From Segatella copri (GTDB taxonomy: Bacteria; Bacteroidota; Bacteroidia; Bacteroidales; Bacteroidaceae), in the NCBI RefSeq assembly GCF_015074785.1, contig NZ_CP042464.1, forward strand, positions 3,225,001 through 3,289,000: a stretch of DNA of 64,000 nucleotides, written 5' to 3'. A model generated the notes under the pieces. That model worked only from the letters and a program-made list of their open reading frames with translations, was not told the DNA's origin and made no database searches. Made by a program: the position numbers and the translations under genes. Each line of letters starts with the position of its first letter. Position 1 is the first letter of the stretch. Shown here piece by piece: positions 10,234 through 58,759 of this stretch.

Positions 10234-11004
10234 ATGAGCAAAGGAAAATTAGCAAAGTTTGCGGATATGGAGCGTTTCGAGAACGTGTTCCAGTATCCAT
10301 ATAGTGTTGTAGATGACGTGCCTTTCGATATGAAGGGCAAGTGGCGTGAGATGTATTTCCACAATGATAACCCTATCGTGCTGGAGTTGGGATGCGGCAA
10401 GGGTGAATATACCGTGGAACTTGCCAAGCTCTATCCTGAAATGAACTTCATCGGTGTGGATATCAAGGGCGCACGTATGTGGACCGGTGCCAAGAAGGCG
10501 ATAGAGGAAGGACAGAAGAACGTGGCTTTCCTCCGTACCAACATCGAAATTATCGACCGCTTCTTTGCCGAGGATGAGGTGCAGGAAATCTGGCTCACCT
10601 TCTCTGACCCGCAGATGAAGAATCCTCGCAAGCGTCTTACATCTACATACTTCATGAACCGTTATCGCCACTTCCTCGTGGATGGTGGCATCATCCATCT
10701 GAAGACGGACTCCAACTTCCTCTTCACCTATACTACTTATATGGTGGATGGCAACCATCTGCCTGTGCTCTTCCGCACAGAGGACCTCTATCATCAGGAG
10801 GGTATCGACGAGGAAACCCGTAAGATTCTCTCTATCCAGACCTATTATGAGAGTATGTGGATAGAGCGTGGCTTGAACATCAAGTATCAGAAGTTCGCCT
10901 TGCCACGTGAGGGCGAGTTGGTGGAACCTGATATTGAGATTCCGCTGGATGATTATCGCAGTTATCGCCGTGATAAGCGAAGCTCAAAGGATACAGCGAA
11001 GTAG
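10234..11004 (+). CDS. trmB: tRNA (guanine-N7-)-methyltransferase TrmB
   Basis: 256 aa from ATG 10234. The SAM-binding motif is [14 protein letters not shown], and the family block [16 protein letters not shown] follows, as in TrmB. It forms m7G46 in the variable loop of many tRNAs using S-adenosylmethionine. The start is chosen over an in-frame ATG 39 nt upstream because a -7 box sits at 10200-10207. The C-terminus ends in a basic tail ([13 protein letters not shown]). Single-gene unit, followed by a repeat array. Confidence 0.95.
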
Positions 11005-11087
11005 ATTTCTACAATGATTTGAATAAGCTTCCGCAATGCTTTGAATGCCTTTCCTCAAGTGTTATTGGCGTTTGAAGAATGCGTCAT

Positions 11088-11250
11088 AAGTATCTGAAAG
11101 AAGTAACTGAAGTTGTTCGGAGATACAATAGAAGTTGTTGGAACAGTAAGTATCTCGAAGCGCACAACAGTTGATATGCGGTCGCACATCAGCTGTTGTG
11201 CGCTTGTCTTTCAGCTGTTGTGCATGCGTAGAACAGCTGTTGTGCGGCTT
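11088..11250. repeat. Degenerate tandem array with 22-nt period and palindromic cores
   Basis: CAGCTGTTGTGC occurs at 11190-11201, 11212-11223 and 11234-11245, exactly 22 nt apart, with a weaker copy (CAGTTGATATGC) at 11168-11179. Read as 18-nt units plus 4-nt spacers (11162-11179, 11184-11201, 11206-11223, 11228-11245), the cores are full or partial palindromes of the form GCACAACAGCTGTTGTGC. Upstream GAAGTTGTT at 11109 and 11131 keeps the same 22-nt period, and AAGTATCT at 11088 fits one period earlier. The geometry equals that of the array at 24606. The stretch 11005-11264 holds no gene. Function unknown. Confidence 0.8.
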
Positions 11251-20249: not shown

Positions 20250-21633
20250 TCAATACTCTGTTAATTCTTATGTAATCGATTGAAAATGAGAGAGTTAATT
20301 AACGTAATATAACTAATAAAATTTGGTTAAGTGGCTGATTATCAGTAACTTTATAGTTCTCTAAGCTCAAAGTTATATGACATCAGAACCACTCAACCAA
20401 TATACGGAAATATGCAGAGATGCTATCAAAAGTTCATCTGCAAAGTTAAGCAAAACTTTCGAGAGTCTACTCTTGGAAATACTTTTATTGTACATGACGA
20501 TACAAAGAAAGATAAATTTCACTCAAATGGAGCGTTACGGCACCCATTGTGAGCAGACCTACAGAACGAACTTCAACCGTGGTCGTGCTAAATGCATAGA
20601 CTGGGTGAAGTTCAACCTTGCCCTATGCCGACGTTACTTGAATATGGATGGTCTATTGGCTATAGCCATCGATCCGAGCTACATCAGCAAGTCGGGTAAG
20701 AAGACTCCGCATATCGGTACTTTCTGGTCCGGTTGTGCAAGTTCCATGAAGCATGGGCTTGAAATCATGGGGCTTGCACTTGTCGATGTCCATGCCAACA
20801 GTTGCATGATGCTGCGCGCCCATCAGACTCCATCTACTGGAGAATTGAAAATGCGTAACATGACTCTCGTGCAACATTACATAGCGGTCATCAAGCGTTA
20901 TAAGAAGGATTTGTTGAAGGTCACCGATATTGTTGTCGCTGACGCTTTCTTCTCTATCCGTCCGTTTGTGGACGGAATCAAAGAGTGCGGTTTCCATCTT
21001 GTCAGCCGCTTCAGGGATACTGCGAGCCTATATTATGTGTATACGGGACCTCGTTCCAATAAGCCTGGACGTCCCAAGACACTTGACGGAAAAATCAACT
21101 ACAAGAAACTTGACCTCACACGTATGGCAGAGTTGCATATTGAAGGACTTGAAGGCACAGCCTACACACTCATAGCCTATTCAAAGGCATTGAAGCAGAA
21201 AGTGCGCCTTGTCATTTGGGTTATGCCGAACGGAAAACACAAGCTTTTCTTCTCAACAAAGACATCCATGTCGGGTGAGGAAGTGTTGCGCACATACCGC
21301 TCAAGATTCCAAATAGAGTTTTGTTTTCGCGATGCAAAGCAATATACTGGTCTTACGCATTGCCAAGCAAGACACAAGAACCAGTTGGACTTTTCCTATA
21401 ATGCATCATTCGCATCACAGAATGTTGCGAAAGTGATGATGAAGGAAAATGAATTGCCGTATTCCATGGCTTCTTTCAAGGAGATTATGGCAAGCACATA
21501 CATCGCTAAATTAATTTTCAACAAGTGTCGGAGAATACCGAACCGAAAGTTAATTAGTCATACTATCAAAGAACTCTTTGGCTGGCAACGTAAAGCTGCT
21601 TAGCCATTATCTCAAATTTTAACGAACTATTGA
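20250..21633 (+). mobile_element. IS4-family insertion sequence, about 1384 bp
   Basis: Terminal inverted repeats begin TCAATA at 20250 and, on the other strand, TCAATA at 21633; about 12 of the first 15 positions match (TCAATA-T--GTTAA). The flanking TTAA at 20246-20249 and 21634-21637 is a plausible 4-bp target duplication, although TTAA is its own complement, so ends and duplication cannot be separated with certainty. One transposase gene fills most of the element. Insertion is within signal-peptide codons of the GLPGLI gene. Confidence 0.88.
20377..21603 (+). CDS. IS4-family DDE transposase
   Basis: 408 aa, apparently intact. Catalytic Asp99 (IAIDPSYISKSGKK) and Asp189 (VVADAFFS) precede the YREK signature Y307-(2)-R310-(3)-E314-(6)-K321 (YRSRFQIEFCFRDAK), with the spacing diagnostic of the IS4 superfamily. 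Full length and without stops or frameshifts, so the element may still be active. A weak -7-like TAACTTTA lies near 20345 inside the left end. Confidence 0.93.
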   Translation: MTSEPLNQYTEICRDAIKSSSAKLSKTFESLLLEILLLYMTIQRKINFTQMERYGTHCEQTYRTNFNRGRAKCIDWVKFNLALCRRYLNMDGLLAIAIDPSYISKSGKKTPHIGTFWSGCASSMKHGLEIMGLALVDVHANSCMMLRAHQTPSTGELKMRNMTLVQHYIAVIKRYKKDLLKVTDIVVADAFFSIRPFVDGIKECGFHLVSRFRDTASLYYVYTGPRSNKPGRPKTLDGKINYKKLDLTRMAELHIEGLEGTAYTLIAYSKALKQKVRLVIWVMPNGKHKLFFSTKTSMSGEEVLRTYRSRFQIEFCFRDAKQYTGLTHCQARHKNQLDFSYNASFASQNVAKVMMKENELPYSMASFKEIMASTYIAKLIFNKCRRIPNRKLISHTIKELFGWQRKAA

Positions 21634-21854: not shown

Positions 21855-22934
21855 ATGAACAGTAACAGTAAGCTGAAAATAGTATGGATGGTATGTGGAG
21901 TAGCAATCGCATTGTTGTTCTGCACGCAGGCATATTGGCTCCATCTTCAATGTCAATATAGCTTAGACCAGCAGGTAGAGCAATTCAAGAAGGATTGTGA
22001 TGAAGTGTTAGCGCAAGATTTGAAGAATAGAAAAAAGTTGCAGGAGAATTCATCTACGAAAGGTAGAAGAGATACGGTTATGCTTAAGATAGAATCTGAA
22101 TATGATATGAAGAAGGGATGTAGCCGTACTACGCTTTCTTTTTGGAACAATCACCGCTTTCTTGTCCGTTTGAATGATCCTGATCTTACGGGTGATGATG
22201 CTTATCTCATCATCAGCAGATATCTGGCTTATATAGGTAAGCATCCCTCGTTGGCTTCTTATCAAAGATTACTGGATGATAAGGGATATGGGAAGATATC
22301 CTTTTTTCGCCATCTGGATTACAAGACTGTCTTCCTGAATGCAAAATATGATGCCGAAGGCAGATGGTCACGTGTGGTGACGGTAAAGTATCAGACGAAC
22401 CCAATGTTTCGCCAAGGTATTTCTTTTCAGGTGCCCATTCCTATTACTCGAACGTTCAAAGCCATGATGTGGCAATTGATAGGAAGCATCTTTCTCTTTT
22501 TCATATTGATAGGATGTCTGTATTATCTGGTGAAGACCATAGTCTTCCAGAAACGCATTGATGGCATTCGCCATGAGTTTCTGAAGAATATGATTTATGA
22601 GTTGAAGCAACCGAAAGAAGACGACAAAGGTGAAGAATCTGCTGTTTTTATCGGTTCCATTGCTTTCTACTATGCGCAGAATGAACTGCTATGTGGTAAT
22701 TTCAGAGTAGTCATCACATCTCGTCAAGCTGAAATTCTGAAGCTTCTTGCCGAGAACCAGAACCAGCTTGTAGAGCGGGATTTCATATTGAATGAAGTAT
22801 GGGGTGATGATTCATACTCCAATTCCCTTGCCCTGAACGTGCAGATTACCTATCTTCGCAGGGCATTGAACCTGGATGAAAAGGTAAGTATCGAAGCTGT
22901 CATCAAAAAGGGATATATCCTGCGAACCTGTTGA
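21855..22934 (+). CDS. Membrane-anchored winged-helix regulator with degenerate histidine-kinase box
   Basis: 359 aa from ATG 21855. Membrane segment 1 is at about 7-28, a periplasmic region at about 29-204, and membrane segment 2 at about 206-231. Next comes HEFLKNMIYELKQP (240-253), which resembles a kinase H-box (FxNNMTHELKTP) but has Tyr248 where the phospho-acceptor histidine should be. No ATPase domain follows; the chain goes straight into an OmpR/PhoB-type winged helix (about 265-359: LTSRQ-like VITSRQAEILKLL, NEVWGDD, VQITYLRRALN). Looks like a fused, phosphorylation-independent ToxR-like one-component regulator. Divergent from the GLPGLI operon, its probable target by inference. Confidence 0.82.
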   Translation: MNSNSKLKIVWMVCGVAIALLFCTQAYWLHLQCQYSLDQQVEQFKKDCDEVLAQDLKNRKKLQENSSTKGRRDTVMLKIESEYDMKKGCSRTTLSFWNNHRFLVRLNDPDLTGDDAYLIISRYLAYIGKHPSLASYQRLLDDKGYGKISFFRHLDYKTVFLNAKYDAEGRWSRVVTVKYQTNPMFRQGISFQVPIPITRTFKAMMWQLIGSIFLFFILIGCLYYLVKTIVFQKRIDGIRHEFLKNMIYELKQPKEDDKGEESAVFIGSIAFYYAQNELLCGNFRVVITSRQAEILKLLAENQNQLVERDFILNEVWGDDSYSNSLALNVQITYLRRALNLDEKVSIEAVIKKGYILRTC

Positions 22935-22944
22935 TCTTGTTATC

Positions 22945-22980
22945 AACTCTCATCTTTTTAGAAAGGTGGAAGTTTTTTTA
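22945..22980 (+). terminator. Probable terminator after the membrane regulator
   Basis: Imperfect 13-bp stem (22945-22957 with about 22962-22974, using G-U pairs and one mismatch) and a run of T, 10 nt after the stop. Confidence 0.65.
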
Positions 22981-22991
22981 TCTTAATTTAT

Positions 22992-23022
22992 TTTGTCCTT
23001 CACCTATTTTGTTGTAACTTTG
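22992..23022 (+). promoter_or_regulatory. Promoter of gpmI
   Basis: TTTG at 22992-22995, a 19-nt spacer and TAACTTTG at 23015-23022. It places the gpmI start at 23059 rather than at an upstream in-frame ATG. Confidence 0.75.
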
Positions 23023-23058
23023 CAGTCGAAATTCGAATTTAAATTATTTTATGTAATT

Positions 23059-24582
23059 ATGGCAAAAAAAGCTCTTTTAATGATTCTCGACGGATGGGGA
23101 ATCGGTAAGCATGATAAGGGTGATGTTATCTTCAAGACTCCAACTCCTTATCTCGATTATTTGACAGCAGTTTCAGCACATTCTACTCTCCAGACTTGTG
23201 GCGAGGACGTAGGTCTTCCTAAAGGTCAGATGGGTAACTCTGAGGTAGGTCACCTCAACATTGGTGCTGGTCGTGTGGTATATCAGGACCTCGTTAAGAT
23301 CAACAAGGCTTGCGAGAGCGGTGACATCTTGAAGAATCAGGAGATCATCAACGCTTACAGCTATGCTCAGAAGACTGGTAAGAAACTCCACTTGATGGGC
23401 TTGACTTCTACCGGTGGTGTTCACTCTTCTTTGGATCACCTCTTCAAGTTGATTGAGATTGGTAAGGAATATGGTTTGAAGGAGACATACGTTCACTGCT
23501 TCATGGATGGTCGTGATACAGACCCTAAGAGCGGTAAGGGCTTCATCGAGGAGGTGCAGGCTTGCTGCGACAAGAATGGTGCACACATCGCAAGCATCGT
23601 GGGTCGTTTCTATGCTATGGACCGTGACAAGCGCTGGAACCGTGTGAAGGAAGCATACGACTTGCTCGTTGAGGGTAAGGGTAAGCAGGCTGACGATATG
23701 GTGAAGGCAATGCAGGAGAGCTATGATGAGGACGTAACAGACGAGTTCATCAAGCCAATCAATAACTCTAAGGTTGACGGTACTATTCAGGAGGGTGATG
23801 TTGTTATCTTCATCAACTACCGTAACGACCGTGCCAAGGAGTTGACACAGGTATTGACTCAGCAGGATATGCCAGAGGAAGGCATGCACACCATCAAGGA
23901 CTTGCAGTACTACTGCATGACTCCATACGATGCAGGCTTCCAGGGCGTTCACATCCTCTTCCCTAAGGAGAACGTAATGAATACCCTCGGTGAGTACTTG
24001 AGCGCACAGGGCAAGAAGCAGCTCCACACTGCAGAGACAGAGAAGTATGCTCACGTAACATTCTTCTTCAATGGTGGTCGTGAGACTCCATACGAGGGCG
24101 AAGACCGTATCCTGGTTCCTTCTCCAAAGGTGGCTACATACGACTTGAAGCCAGAGATGAGCGCTTACGAGGTAAAGGATAAGTTGGTTGGTGCTATCAA
24201 CACTCAGGAGTACGACTTCATCGTTGTAAACTTCGCTAATGGTGATATGGTAGGTCACACAGGAATCTACAACGCTATCGCTAAGGCTGTTCACGCTGTT
24301 GACAACTGCGTAAAGGACGTTATCGAGGCTGCTAAGGCTAACGATTATGAGGCTATCATCATCGCTGACCACGGTAATGCAGACCACGCTATCAACGAGG
24401 ACGGTACCCCTAACACCGCTCACTCTTTGAACCCAGTTCCATTCATCTACGTAACTGACAACAATTCAGCTACTGTAAAGGATGGTCGTTTGGCAGACGT
24501 AGCTCCTTCTATCCTCCATATCATGGGCTTGGAGAAGCCTGCAGATATGACAGGTGAGAACTTGATTTCTGACAACAAGTAA
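23059..24582 (+). CDS. gpmI: 2,3-bisphosphoglycerate-independent phosphoglycerate mutase
   Basis: 507 aa from ATG 23059. Interconverts 3- and 2-phosphoglycerate in glycolysis through a phosphoserine intermediate and two Mn2+ ions. LDGWG (10-14) is the first metal site; Ser61 in MGNSEVGH is the phosphoserine; DGRDTDP, RNDRAKE and the C-terminal ADHGNADH and HSLNPVPF blocks are all present. Codons are strongly biased (AAG, CGT, GGT), as expected for a highly expressed gene. Own promoter; followed by a palindrome array. Confidence 0.97.
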
Positions 24583-24605
24583 AAACGATTTTATATACCT
24601 CAAAA

Positions 24606-24667
24606 AAGTATCCTAAGATACTTGGCCAAGTATCTTAGGATACTTGCGTAAGTATCTTAAGATACTT
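24606..24667. repeat. Three tandem 18-nt palindromes with 22-nt period
   Basis: AAGTATCCTAAGATACTT (24606-24623), AAGTATCTTAGGATACTT (24628-24645) and AAGTATCTTAAGATACTT (24650-24667) are separated by 4-nt spacers GGCC and GCGT. The third is a perfect palindrome; the first two each have one central mismatch and are reverse complements of each other. It lies between gpmI and ung, starting 23 nt after the gpmI stop. It could fold into serial hairpins in RNA or bind a dimeric protein; no function is assigned. The 22-nt geometry matches the array at 11088. Confidence 0.92.
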
Positions 24668-24684
24668 TTGAATTTATATTAAGC

Positions 24685-25350
24685 ATGAACGTAAAGATAG
24701 AAGAAAGTTGGAAACAGCATATAGGAGAAGAGTTCAACAAGCAGTATTTTGTTGACCTCACAAACTTCGTGAAAGAGGAATACCTGCGTACGCCCTGTTA
24801 TCCTCCTGGCCGCTTGATTTTCAATGCCTTCAATCTCTGTCCTTTTGATGATGTGAAGGTAGTGATTATCGGACAGGATCCATACCATGAGCCGGGTCAG
24901 GCGATGGGACTGAGTTTCTCTGTGCCGGACGGAATCACTTTCCCACCATCATTGATTAATATATTCAAGGAGATTCAGATGGATCTCGGTACTCCGATGC
25001 CAGCTACGGGCGATTTAACCCGCTGGGCAAAGCAGGGAGTATTGTTGCTCAACGCCACGTTGACCGTTCGTGCCCATCAGGCAGCGAGTCATCAGCGCAA
25101 GGGCTGGGAGGAATTCACAGATGCTGCTATCCAGGCGCTCAGCAAGGATAAGGAGCATCTGGTGTTTATCCTTTGGGGCGGTTATGCCCGGAGCAAGGCG
25201 AAGCTCATCGATACAAGCAAGCATCTGATATTGGAAAGCGTTCATCCTTCGCCATTATCAGCCAACCGTGTCGGATGGTTTGGCAATCATCATTTCTCCC
25301 GCTGCAATGCGTATCTGCAGCAGAACGGAATTGCGCCTATCCAATGGTAG
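24685..25350 (+). CDS. ung: Uracil-DNA glycosylase
   Basis: 221 aa, family 1 UDG. The water-activating motif is IGQDPYHEPGQAMGLSFSV, and the DNA-intercalation loop is ESVHPSPLSANR. Removes uracil from DNA as the first step of base excision repair. Normal length, cytosolic. The 18-nt gap to the upstream palindrome array leaves little room for a separate promoter, so it may be read through from gpmI or be controlled by the array. Confidence 0.97.
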   Translation: MNVKIEESWKQHIGEEFNKQYFVDLTNFVKEEYLRTPCYPPGRLIFNAFNLCPFDDVKVVIIGQDPYHEPGQAMGLSFSVPDGITFPPSLINIFKEIQMDLGTPMPATGDLTRWAKQGVLLLNATLTVRAHQAASHQRKGWEEFTDAAIQALSKDKEHLVFILWGGYARSKAKLIDTSKHLILESVHPSPLSANRVGWFGNHHFSRCNAYLQQNGIAPIQW

Positions 25351-25366
25351 GTACACCGATTAATAT

Positions 25367-25402
25367 ATAGCTATCCACTCATGGGTAGCTATCATTATTT
25401 TT
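25367..25402 (+). terminator. Probable terminator after ung
   Basis: 10-bp stem (25367-25376 with 25383-25392, one G-U pair), 6-nt loop and a T-rich tail. Confidence 0.75.
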
Positions 25403-25442
25403 TATTATACACTCAAAGAAATTTATTCATCTCAAAAACATT

Positions 25443-26078
25443 ATGAAGAAAGACGAACTGCGTATTCTGCAGGTGGGCAACGTATTGGTTTCACCTGATA
25501 TTATCACCGAAAAATTCTGTTGCGACCTTGATGCCTGCAAGGGTGAGTGCTGCATCGAAGGCGATGCGGGAGCTCCTGTTACCCTGGATGAGATTATGGA
25601 GATTGAGGATGCGCTGGATGTGGTTTGGGATGATCTCTCAGCTTCTGCCCAGGCTATCATAGATAAGCAGGGCGTGGCTTATACCGATATTGAAGGCGAT
25701 TTGGTGACGAGCATCGTGAATGGTAAGGATTGTGTGTTTACATGCTACCAGGATTTGAAAGACCTGGGCGATGGACATACGATTCCGAATTGTTGTCTCT
25801 GTGCCTTGGAGCGTGCTTATCGCGAAGGAAAGTCGAAGTTCAAGAAGCCTATCTCCTGTGCTTTGTATCCAATCCGTGCCAAGGATTTCGGCAACGAGGT
25901 GTATGGCATCAACTATAACAAATGGCGTATCTGCAAGGATGCCATCAAGAAAGGAGAGGAGTTGAATCTTCCGGTTTATAAGTTCCTGGAGGGTCCGTTG
26001 GTAGAGAAATTCAGCAAGGAATGGTATGATGAGCTTTGCGAAGTGGCAGAGCAAGTACTTGCCGAATTGGAAGACTAA
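25443..26078 (+). CDS. DUF3109 family cysteine-rich protein
   Basis: 211 aa, no signal peptide. Clusters of cysteines, FCCDLDACKGECC near residue 28, CVFTC near 98, NCCLCAL near 118, ISCALYP near 138 and RIC near 160, match DUF3109, a Bacteroidota family of unknown function that is probably metal-binding (related in Cys pattern to YkgJ zinc/iron chelators). Own start 50 nt after the ung terminator; nothing in the context reveals its substrate. Confidence 0.85.
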   Translation: MKKDELRILQVGNVLVSPDIITEKFCCDLDACKGECCIEGDAGAPVTLDEIMEIEDALDVVWDDLSASAQAIIDKQGVAYTDIEGDLVTSIVNGKDCVFTCYQDLKDLGDGHTIPNCCLCALERAYREGKSKFKKPISCALYPIRAKDFGNEVYGINYNKWRICKDAIKKGEELNLPVYKFLEGPLVEKFSKEWYDELCEVAEQVLAELED

Positions 26079-58661: not shown

Positions 58662-58759
58662 TTTTGCCCCACACGCCCTGTTTTGCCCCACACGCCCTGA
58701 AAGGGCAGAAACTCCTAGCCCAGGGCGTGCTGCTTCTGGAGCTTTTGGGCCTTCAGCCC
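58662..58759. repeat. REP-like palindromic element with 19-nt tandem repeat
   Basis: TTTTGCCCCACACGCCCTG occurs twice in direct tandem (58662-58680, 58681-58699). CACGCCCT (58691-58698) pairs with AGGGCGTG (58722-58729); GCCCTGAAAGGGC near 58694-58707 and GGGCCTTCAGCCC (58747-58759) are further small hairpins. GC-rich against its AT-rich surroundings, between the envC stop and its terminator. Resembles dispersed REP elements of other genomes; no RAYT transposase is in the window. Confidence 0.7.

Follow-up and report, generated by a model that had tools for sequence, protein, structure and literature searches.

Intergenic palindrome arrays with a 22-nt pitch in Segatella copri and its genus

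The known systems nearest to the one reported here are the BrickBuilt element and the REP/BIME sequences. BrickBuilt, as described in its report, is a MITE of Porphyromonas gingivalis and P. gulae that consists of a 23-nt tandem unit and carries IS5-type ends (PMC4596501); the same source refers to tandem repeats of 41, 23 and 22 nt described previously in P. gingivalis W83. The RAYT-linked REP/BIME sequences have, in the accessible part of the account, a GTAG or CGTC tag by the palindrome (PMC3733652). Searches of an open-access library gave no paper on arrays of the kind described below in Prevotella or Segatella and no named equivalent, and passages of two further articles (PMC5771137, PMC8040213) added nothing.

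The palindrome array between gpmI and ung

The stretch of S. copri DNA that we analyzed (64,000 nucleotides; hereafter the window) contains at positions 24606-24667 three near-identical 18-nt palindromes (AAGTATCYTARGATACTT) with a pitch of exactly 22 nt. Pattern scan and sequence place unit 1 (AAGTATCCTAAGATACTT) at 24606-24623, unit 2 (AAGTATCTTAGGATACTT), the exact reverse complement of unit 1, at 24628-24645, and unit 3 (AAGTATCTTAAGATACTT) at 24650-24667; the spacers between them are GGCC (24624-24627) and GCGT (24646-24649), and neither units nor spacers are assigned a strand. With the self-complementary GGCC between two units that are exact reverse complements of each other, positions 24606-24645 form a perfect 40-nt palindrome. 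Behind the last unit follows a weak T-rich tail (TTGAATTTAT, 24668-24677, + strand), seen in the sequence and in a terminator consensus scan. The array begins 23 nt past the stop codon of gpmI (22993-24582, + strand, with the start codon given by the ORF tool), a 529-aa ORF with its stop at 24582 that encodes a cofactor-independent phosphoglycerate mutase with iPGM_N and Metalloenzyme domains. It ends 17 nt ahead of the ATG of ung (24685-25350, + strand), the gene for a uracil-DNA glycosylase with a UDG domain.

A degenerate pattern of the unit, with up to three mismatches allowed, matches three times in the whole 64 kb, each time at a unit of the array; in shuffled windows (n=100) it averages 0.20 matches with a maximum of two, and 0/100 reach three. 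The three 18-nt palindromes with a strict 22-nt period that the initial annotation had placed between the two genes are thus confirmed, coordinates included, and the annotation, though correct, understated what is there. CRISPR arrays have repeats of more than 20 nt and long unique spacers, and with units of 18 nt, which are too short, and spacers of 4 nt this candidate was ruled out. The five ORFs scanned around the array contain no replication or partition domain. A DDE transposase ORF lies upstream of gpmI at 20377-21603, and an exact 19-nt tandem duplication (TTTTGCCCCACACGCCCTG) is present at 58662-58699 of the window.

The array occupies the same site in G001, the nearest of the genomes compared, and in S. 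copri iA622 (G085). Among these three sequences, 0/54 core positions differ vs 2/8 spacer positions, G001 (GCAT for GCGT) and iA622 (GGCT for GGCC) having one change each at different positions; the earlier statement that core and period are kept but the spacer is not holds for them. The exact two-unit pattern found a single record, iA622, in a genome collection that may lack the closest neighbors of the window, and a two-unit pattern with up to three mismatches matched one of 60 relatives (G001; control 0). When some 160-170 nt upstream of ung were inspected as loci for 30 of 59 matches (56 genomes), the array appeared in G001 only, the upstream gene in several of these 30 loci being one other than gpmI. 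In the sister species G067 (Ung 97% identical), the gpmI-ung gap contains a hairpin of terminator-like form that is unrelated to the array (GAAGTCAAGGCT...AGCCTTGACTTC). The initial annotation had staked its proposal on two observations, namely related palindromic sequence in this gap in related strains and a surplus of 22-nt arrays elsewhere. The former fails in G067 and the other ung loci inspected, which have different sequence upstream of ung, and the latter stands, since 22-nt arrays far outnumber those of neighboring periods. The change in copy number that it had suggested looking for was not seen at gpmI-ung, where all three genomes carrying the array have three units; it was seen at the window's other array, for which G067 has one unit.

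G001 and iA622 each carry one more three-unit 22-nt array of this AAGTATC type, at the 3' end of pdxT (pdxT, murF and other neighbors are named by reading translations or DNA). The next ORF in G001 has 375 aa and reads as an ATPase, and in iA622 the array lies between two convergent ORFs that read as murF and pdxT. In both genomes the array leads, on the pdxT strand, into six T, two of them belonging to the unit. A single-unit pattern with at most one mismatch, counted on both strands, matched 13 times (G001), 12 times (iA622) and 0 times (G067), compared with 3, 3 and 1 for the reversed control; apart from one lone site in G001, all single-unit matches are inside the two arrays. The central Y and R of the AAGTATC arrays occur as C-A, T-G and T-A.

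The RNA of 24600-24672 is predicted to fold (MFE -34.2 kcal/mol, z -9.2) into one long hairpin in which unit 1 pairs with unit 3 and unit 2 makes up an apical hairpin; the predicted MFE values of the pdxT copies are -32.4 (G001) and -35.2 kcal/mol (iA622). A stable stem-loop is predicted after the coding sequence at both the gpmI and pdxT arrays. The T run behind the stem amounts to six T at pdxT (two in the unit) and to TTTTGAATTT at gpmI, where the scan gives about as many matches as in shuffled sequence. On the + strand the last gpmI unit leads into TTTT, two of which are its own, and then into GAATTTAT; on the - strand the array ends in a terminal run of six T, two from the unit. The terminator consensus scan lists 24628-24667 as its only + strand match in the gpmI-ung gap, and its three matches in 22800-25500 are near chance (shuffle mean 1.9). 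The initial statement that there is no T run needs correction in view of the T on both strands, and the conclusion drawn from it, that the array is not a standard terminator, is not supported, because the pdxT array enters six T and the transcripts are predicted to form one long stem. Rfam 15 yielded 0 matches at gathering in eight sources with a total of 75,305 bases, among them the G001 gpmI array, and of the 12 hits with E<=5 that window 24000-25200 gave, none attains its gathering score.

A 22-nt pitch in the window and across the genus

Regular arrays were counted in intergenic DNA sampled from the window and from 11 genomes of the genus (195 kb in all), with ORFs of at least 100 aa masked, at lags of 16 to 32 and at a level of at least 28/44 matches after a low-complexity filter. 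Lag 22 gave 53 arrays, lag 21 gave 14, lag 23 nine, lags 16 and 24 seven each, and the others 0-3; before the filter, the counts at lags 22 and 21 were 56 and 19. The survey was partly non-blind, as the window was given and two G001 stretches (L088 and L116, of 40 stretches) had been picked for their AAGTATC arrays; without these three the lag-22 count is 48. Since families repeat within a genome, the lag-22 arrays are not independent of one another. They occur in 11/12 sources, the exception being G065 with only 1.2 kb. Nine genomes belonging to other families of the order contributed a further 76 kb, two very small contigs from a tenth having been set aside; this DNA gave one array at lag 22 and at most three at any lag from 16 to 32. 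The cores are unrelated, as GTTTCAT...ATGAAAC (G027) and TTCCCAGSCTGGGAA (G008) illustrate, and the geometry of an 18-nt core and a 4-nt spacer is found in families (a) and (d). The search for intergenic arrays of similar pitch in relatives, which the initial annotation had recommended, has thus shown the 22-nt pitch to be common to arrays with unrelated cores in the genus, and this suggests a spacing rule in its intergenic gaps.

Judged against column permutation (p<=0.05), 16/53 lag-22 arrays are palindromic, with 2.7 expected (p 4e-9), and 37/53, including all 12 of G017, are not significantly so. Divergent gaps hold 5/47 of all lag-22 arrays (p 0.007) and convergent gaps 14/47 (p 0.07), 6/53 having been dropped from this count. 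One near-perfect tandem array of period 22 in G001 (AAGTACTTGCATCTATCATCGT, L085:9473) is non-palindromic by the column-permutation test. Arrays with a 23-nt period, the pitch of BrickBuilt, are present in other Bacteroidales families (L197:8231 and 9647 in G054, L200:162 in G038).

The second 22-nt-phased array of the window, found by the lag scan and by genome searches, belongs to family (a) with the core GCACAACAGCTGTTGTGC and lies at 11158-11246 (no strand assigned) with convergent ORFs on either side; its four units, the last two with eroded left halves, are followed by GCTTTTTAA. Family (a) is dispersed: a count in three genomes gives 14 loci in G001, 17 in iA622 and 13 in G067, which has one single-unit site in addition, and 44 of these were retrieved. 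Between neighboring units with up to four mismatches to the core, 86/87 spacings below 100 nt equal 22 and one equals 44, and at many loci the 22-nt phase extends through upstream leader units that are, by eye, hardly palindromic. The two-unit pattern of the family occurs in 2/299 genus genomes, at 25 places in each (control 0). At the 11158 site, the flanks in G067 are 98% identical to those of the window and enclose a single perfect terminator-like unit (AAAACCGCACAATAGCTGTTGTGCGGTTTTTTAA); positions 11004-11231, including most of the 89-nt array, correspond to about 30 nt there, and hence to one unit. Orthologous family (a) arrays could be compared in four pairs, too few for indel statistics.

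Convergent gaps hold 19/40 family (a) loci vs 20% of baseline bases (p 9e-5), and divergent gaps 4/40 vs 26.5% (p 0.01). This statistic pools the loci of three genomes, orthologues included, excludes 3/43 loci that lack two flanking ORFs, and uses an ORF cut-off of 70 aa for loci and 100 aa for the baseline. In distinct units 1-3, mismatches on one strand comprise 24 G-T, 8 A-C and 42 others, counts that are not independent. Pair 6/13 of unit 2 is Watson-Crick at 10/43 loci, with A-A at 18 and T-T at 10; no base pairing accompanies the variation at positions 6/13 and 9/10 (consensus GCAYAWCASSTGWTRTGC). In unit 4 the right half is better kept than the left, and half-units persist. Across 47 distinct units, broken pairs (95) outnumber double changes that compensate each other (16); compensatory change is weak at pair 4 (31 observed vs 25.3 +/- 2.8), and at pairs 6 and 9 none exceeds that in shuffles. 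By eye, several family (a) arrays adjoin a separate terminator-like hairpin and do not substitute for one.

Hairpins, protein sites or a ruler

Our best explanation, which taken as a whole we would trust about as readily as we would doubt it, regards the gpmI-ung array as one lineage-specific, low-copy representative of a class of extragenic 22-nt arrays that spans the genus, and the arrays of this class as strings of terminator-type hairpins at the 3' ends of transcripts, multiplied in 22-nt steps. The array stands just behind a stop codon at gpmI and pdxT, where the transcript is predicted to fold into a single long hairpin, and at gpmI it would take the place in which G067 has an ordinary-looking terminator hairpin. 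Most likely, it would supply the gpmI mRNA with its 3' end through intrinsic termination, 3'-end protection or both. The class would probably arise from a terminator-type palindrome that is multiplied in 22-nt steps and spreads to other intergenic sites. Starting from the position, geometry, recurrence and predicted fold of the arrays and from the orthologous site that has one unit in G067 and several in the window, we infer the termination, the multiplication step, its direction and the reason for an interval of 22 nt. Above all, the single-unit site of G067 argues for RNA hairpins, besides the folds, the T run at pdxT, the array's place as the only + strand terminator match in the gpmI-ung gap, the excess of G-T, the surplus of family (a) loci in convergent gaps and the depletion of divergent gaps. 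Against them stand the phased leaders that look hardly palindromic, the 37/53 arrays without significant palindromy, the unpaired positions 6/13, the better-kept right half of unit 4, the small number of compensated changes, the weak T tail at gpmI and the family (a) arrays that adjoin a separate terminator-like hairpin. Moreover, hairpins leave the strict pitch unaccounted for: a string of hairpins needs no exact pitch, yet all family (a) spacings but one are 22.

A serious rival on precisely this point, which we nevertheless consider less probable than RNA hairpins, has each palindrome serve as the site of a homodimer; because 22 bp is about two helical turns, dimers could bind cooperatively on one face of the DNA, with different proteins for each family or one protein that reads shape. 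The exact pitch common to arrays with unrelated cores across the genus would fit such duplex sites, as would the unpaired variation at 6/13 and 9/10, the half-units that remain in family (a), and the combinations of the central Y and R in AAGTATC arrays. Divergent gaps, which hold promoters, are under-represented, however, the orthologous site in G067 consists of one terminator-like unit, and an excess of G-T over A-C is unexpected for a duplex. We also put forward, tentatively, a 22-nt ruler of Prevotella and Segatella, that is, a cellular machine that would build or maintain intergenic ladders regardless of sequence. As a ruler of this type would be sequence-blind, each lineage would have its own families in one geometry. 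Possible candidates for it are a DNA-binding protein that forms filaments or dimers, or an enzyme that copies in steps of 22 nt, and the ruler length perhaps differs by lineage (22 vs 23).

It is improbable, though better founded than the two readings that follow, that the arrays are parts of MITE-like non-autonomous elements mobilized by a transposase in trans, with the array as passive cargo as in BrickBuilt. Family (a) is dispersed, with its 14 loci in G001; by eye, many of its arrays in G001 and iA622 are bounded by GAGGGTGTGTCATAAGT ... ACTTATGACACACCCTC; the 11158 site of G067 has only one unit; and four phage-filed records match the element. Yet 11 of the 14 inverted-repeat places retrieved are, by eye, lone terminator-like hairpins and the other three are pairs flanking other repeats, AAGTATC arrays show no such ends, other families and genomes have the pitch but not these ends, and the plasmid collection gave no match. 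The GAGGGTGTGTCATAAGT motif occurs 78 times with at most one mismatch in the three genomes (30, 26 and 22); no transposase with these ends was found, and reading of one 2.2-kb interval recognized none. The family (a) element matches 4/50,697 phage records, all unannotated, and 0/72,556 plasmid records; plasmid-collection searches as a whole returned nothing. The four (MT838606, MT838622, MT838858, MT837480) come from faecal samples, are 5-7 kb long and carry the name "Bacteriophage sp."; they may be host DNA entered under phage. One of the inverted-repeat places, L243, continues into another phased array. A recurrent terminator-like hairpin of S. copri and its kin, GAGGGTGTGTCATAAG...CTTATGACACACCCTC, flanks arrays and other repeats as well (L243, L245, L248, L249, L252 and the ends of several loci among L138-L165). 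Chance or a functionless slippage minisatellite is very unlikely, even if intergenic DNA often undergoes tandem duplication, lags 21 (14) and 23 (9) are represented, and 37/53 lag-22 arrays have no significant palindromy, for no shuffle reproduced the gpmI-ung array, the lag-22 peak is sharp over unrelated sequences with 16/53 palindromic vs 2.7 expected, and 76 kb outside the genus gave one lag-22 array. Least credible of all is an ung operator, in which a repressor would act on the last palindrome and this palindrome would overlap a promoter, 17 nt ahead of the ung start. That short distance to the ATG would suit it, and TACTTTTG at 24663-24670 fits the Bacteroidota -7 promoter motif, TAnnTTTG; but iA622 has the same array between convergent ORFs, and relatives retain ung without the array.

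Comparison with described repeat systems

BrickBuilt resembles the arrays in that it belongs to the Bacteroidales, is intergenic and dispersed, and combines a unit of nearly equal length and variable number with leader and tail parts, as far as the accessible text of PMC4596501 goes. It differs, by the same text, in being a single family of 23-nt units without spacers, whereas the gpmI-ung array has a pitch of 22 with an 18-nt core and a 4-nt spacer. The word stem 'palindrom' occurs 0 times in that text, while the 22-nt arrays often have palindromic cores and comprise unrelated families at one pitch. By eye, no IS5-type terminal inverted repeats of BrickBuilt (GAGACCTT...) stand beside the AAGTATC arrays, and the ends of family (a) are different.

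The arrays share with REP, BIME and REPIN sequences, in the accessible portions of the respective papers, the nature of short extragenic palindromes, regularly spaced in BIMEs, with lineage-specific sequences (PMC3733652, PMC2817692, PMC3116915). By eye, neither GTAG nor CGTC occurs on either strand of 24600-24672; the core of family (b), TRCGTCCCGACGYA, includes CGTC. Among the seven genomes searched, a Y1_Tnp match (RAYT-type or IS200) was above the cut-off in four and below it only in G085, and there was no match in G025 and G027, both of which bear arrays. REP proper was rejected on these grounds, namely AAGTATC units without a tag and two array-bearing genomes without a Y1_Tnp match.

Iterons and partition-site arrays are series of protein sites repeated about two helical turns apart; the 22-nt arrays differ from them in lying in many intergenic places with unrelated cores. 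The likeness to intrinsic terminators consists in a strong predicted stem behind a stop codon, six T at pdxT and the textbook-looking single unit of G067. The arrays nonetheless repeat their units at a fixed pitch, the T tail at gpmI is weak, and the terminator role is a predicted one. A fixed pitch among arrays of unrelated sequence across a genus of gut bacteria is predicted by neither terminator nor REP models; it suggests a geometric constraint that is directly testable and that would give one explanation for many intergenic repeats of these genomes.
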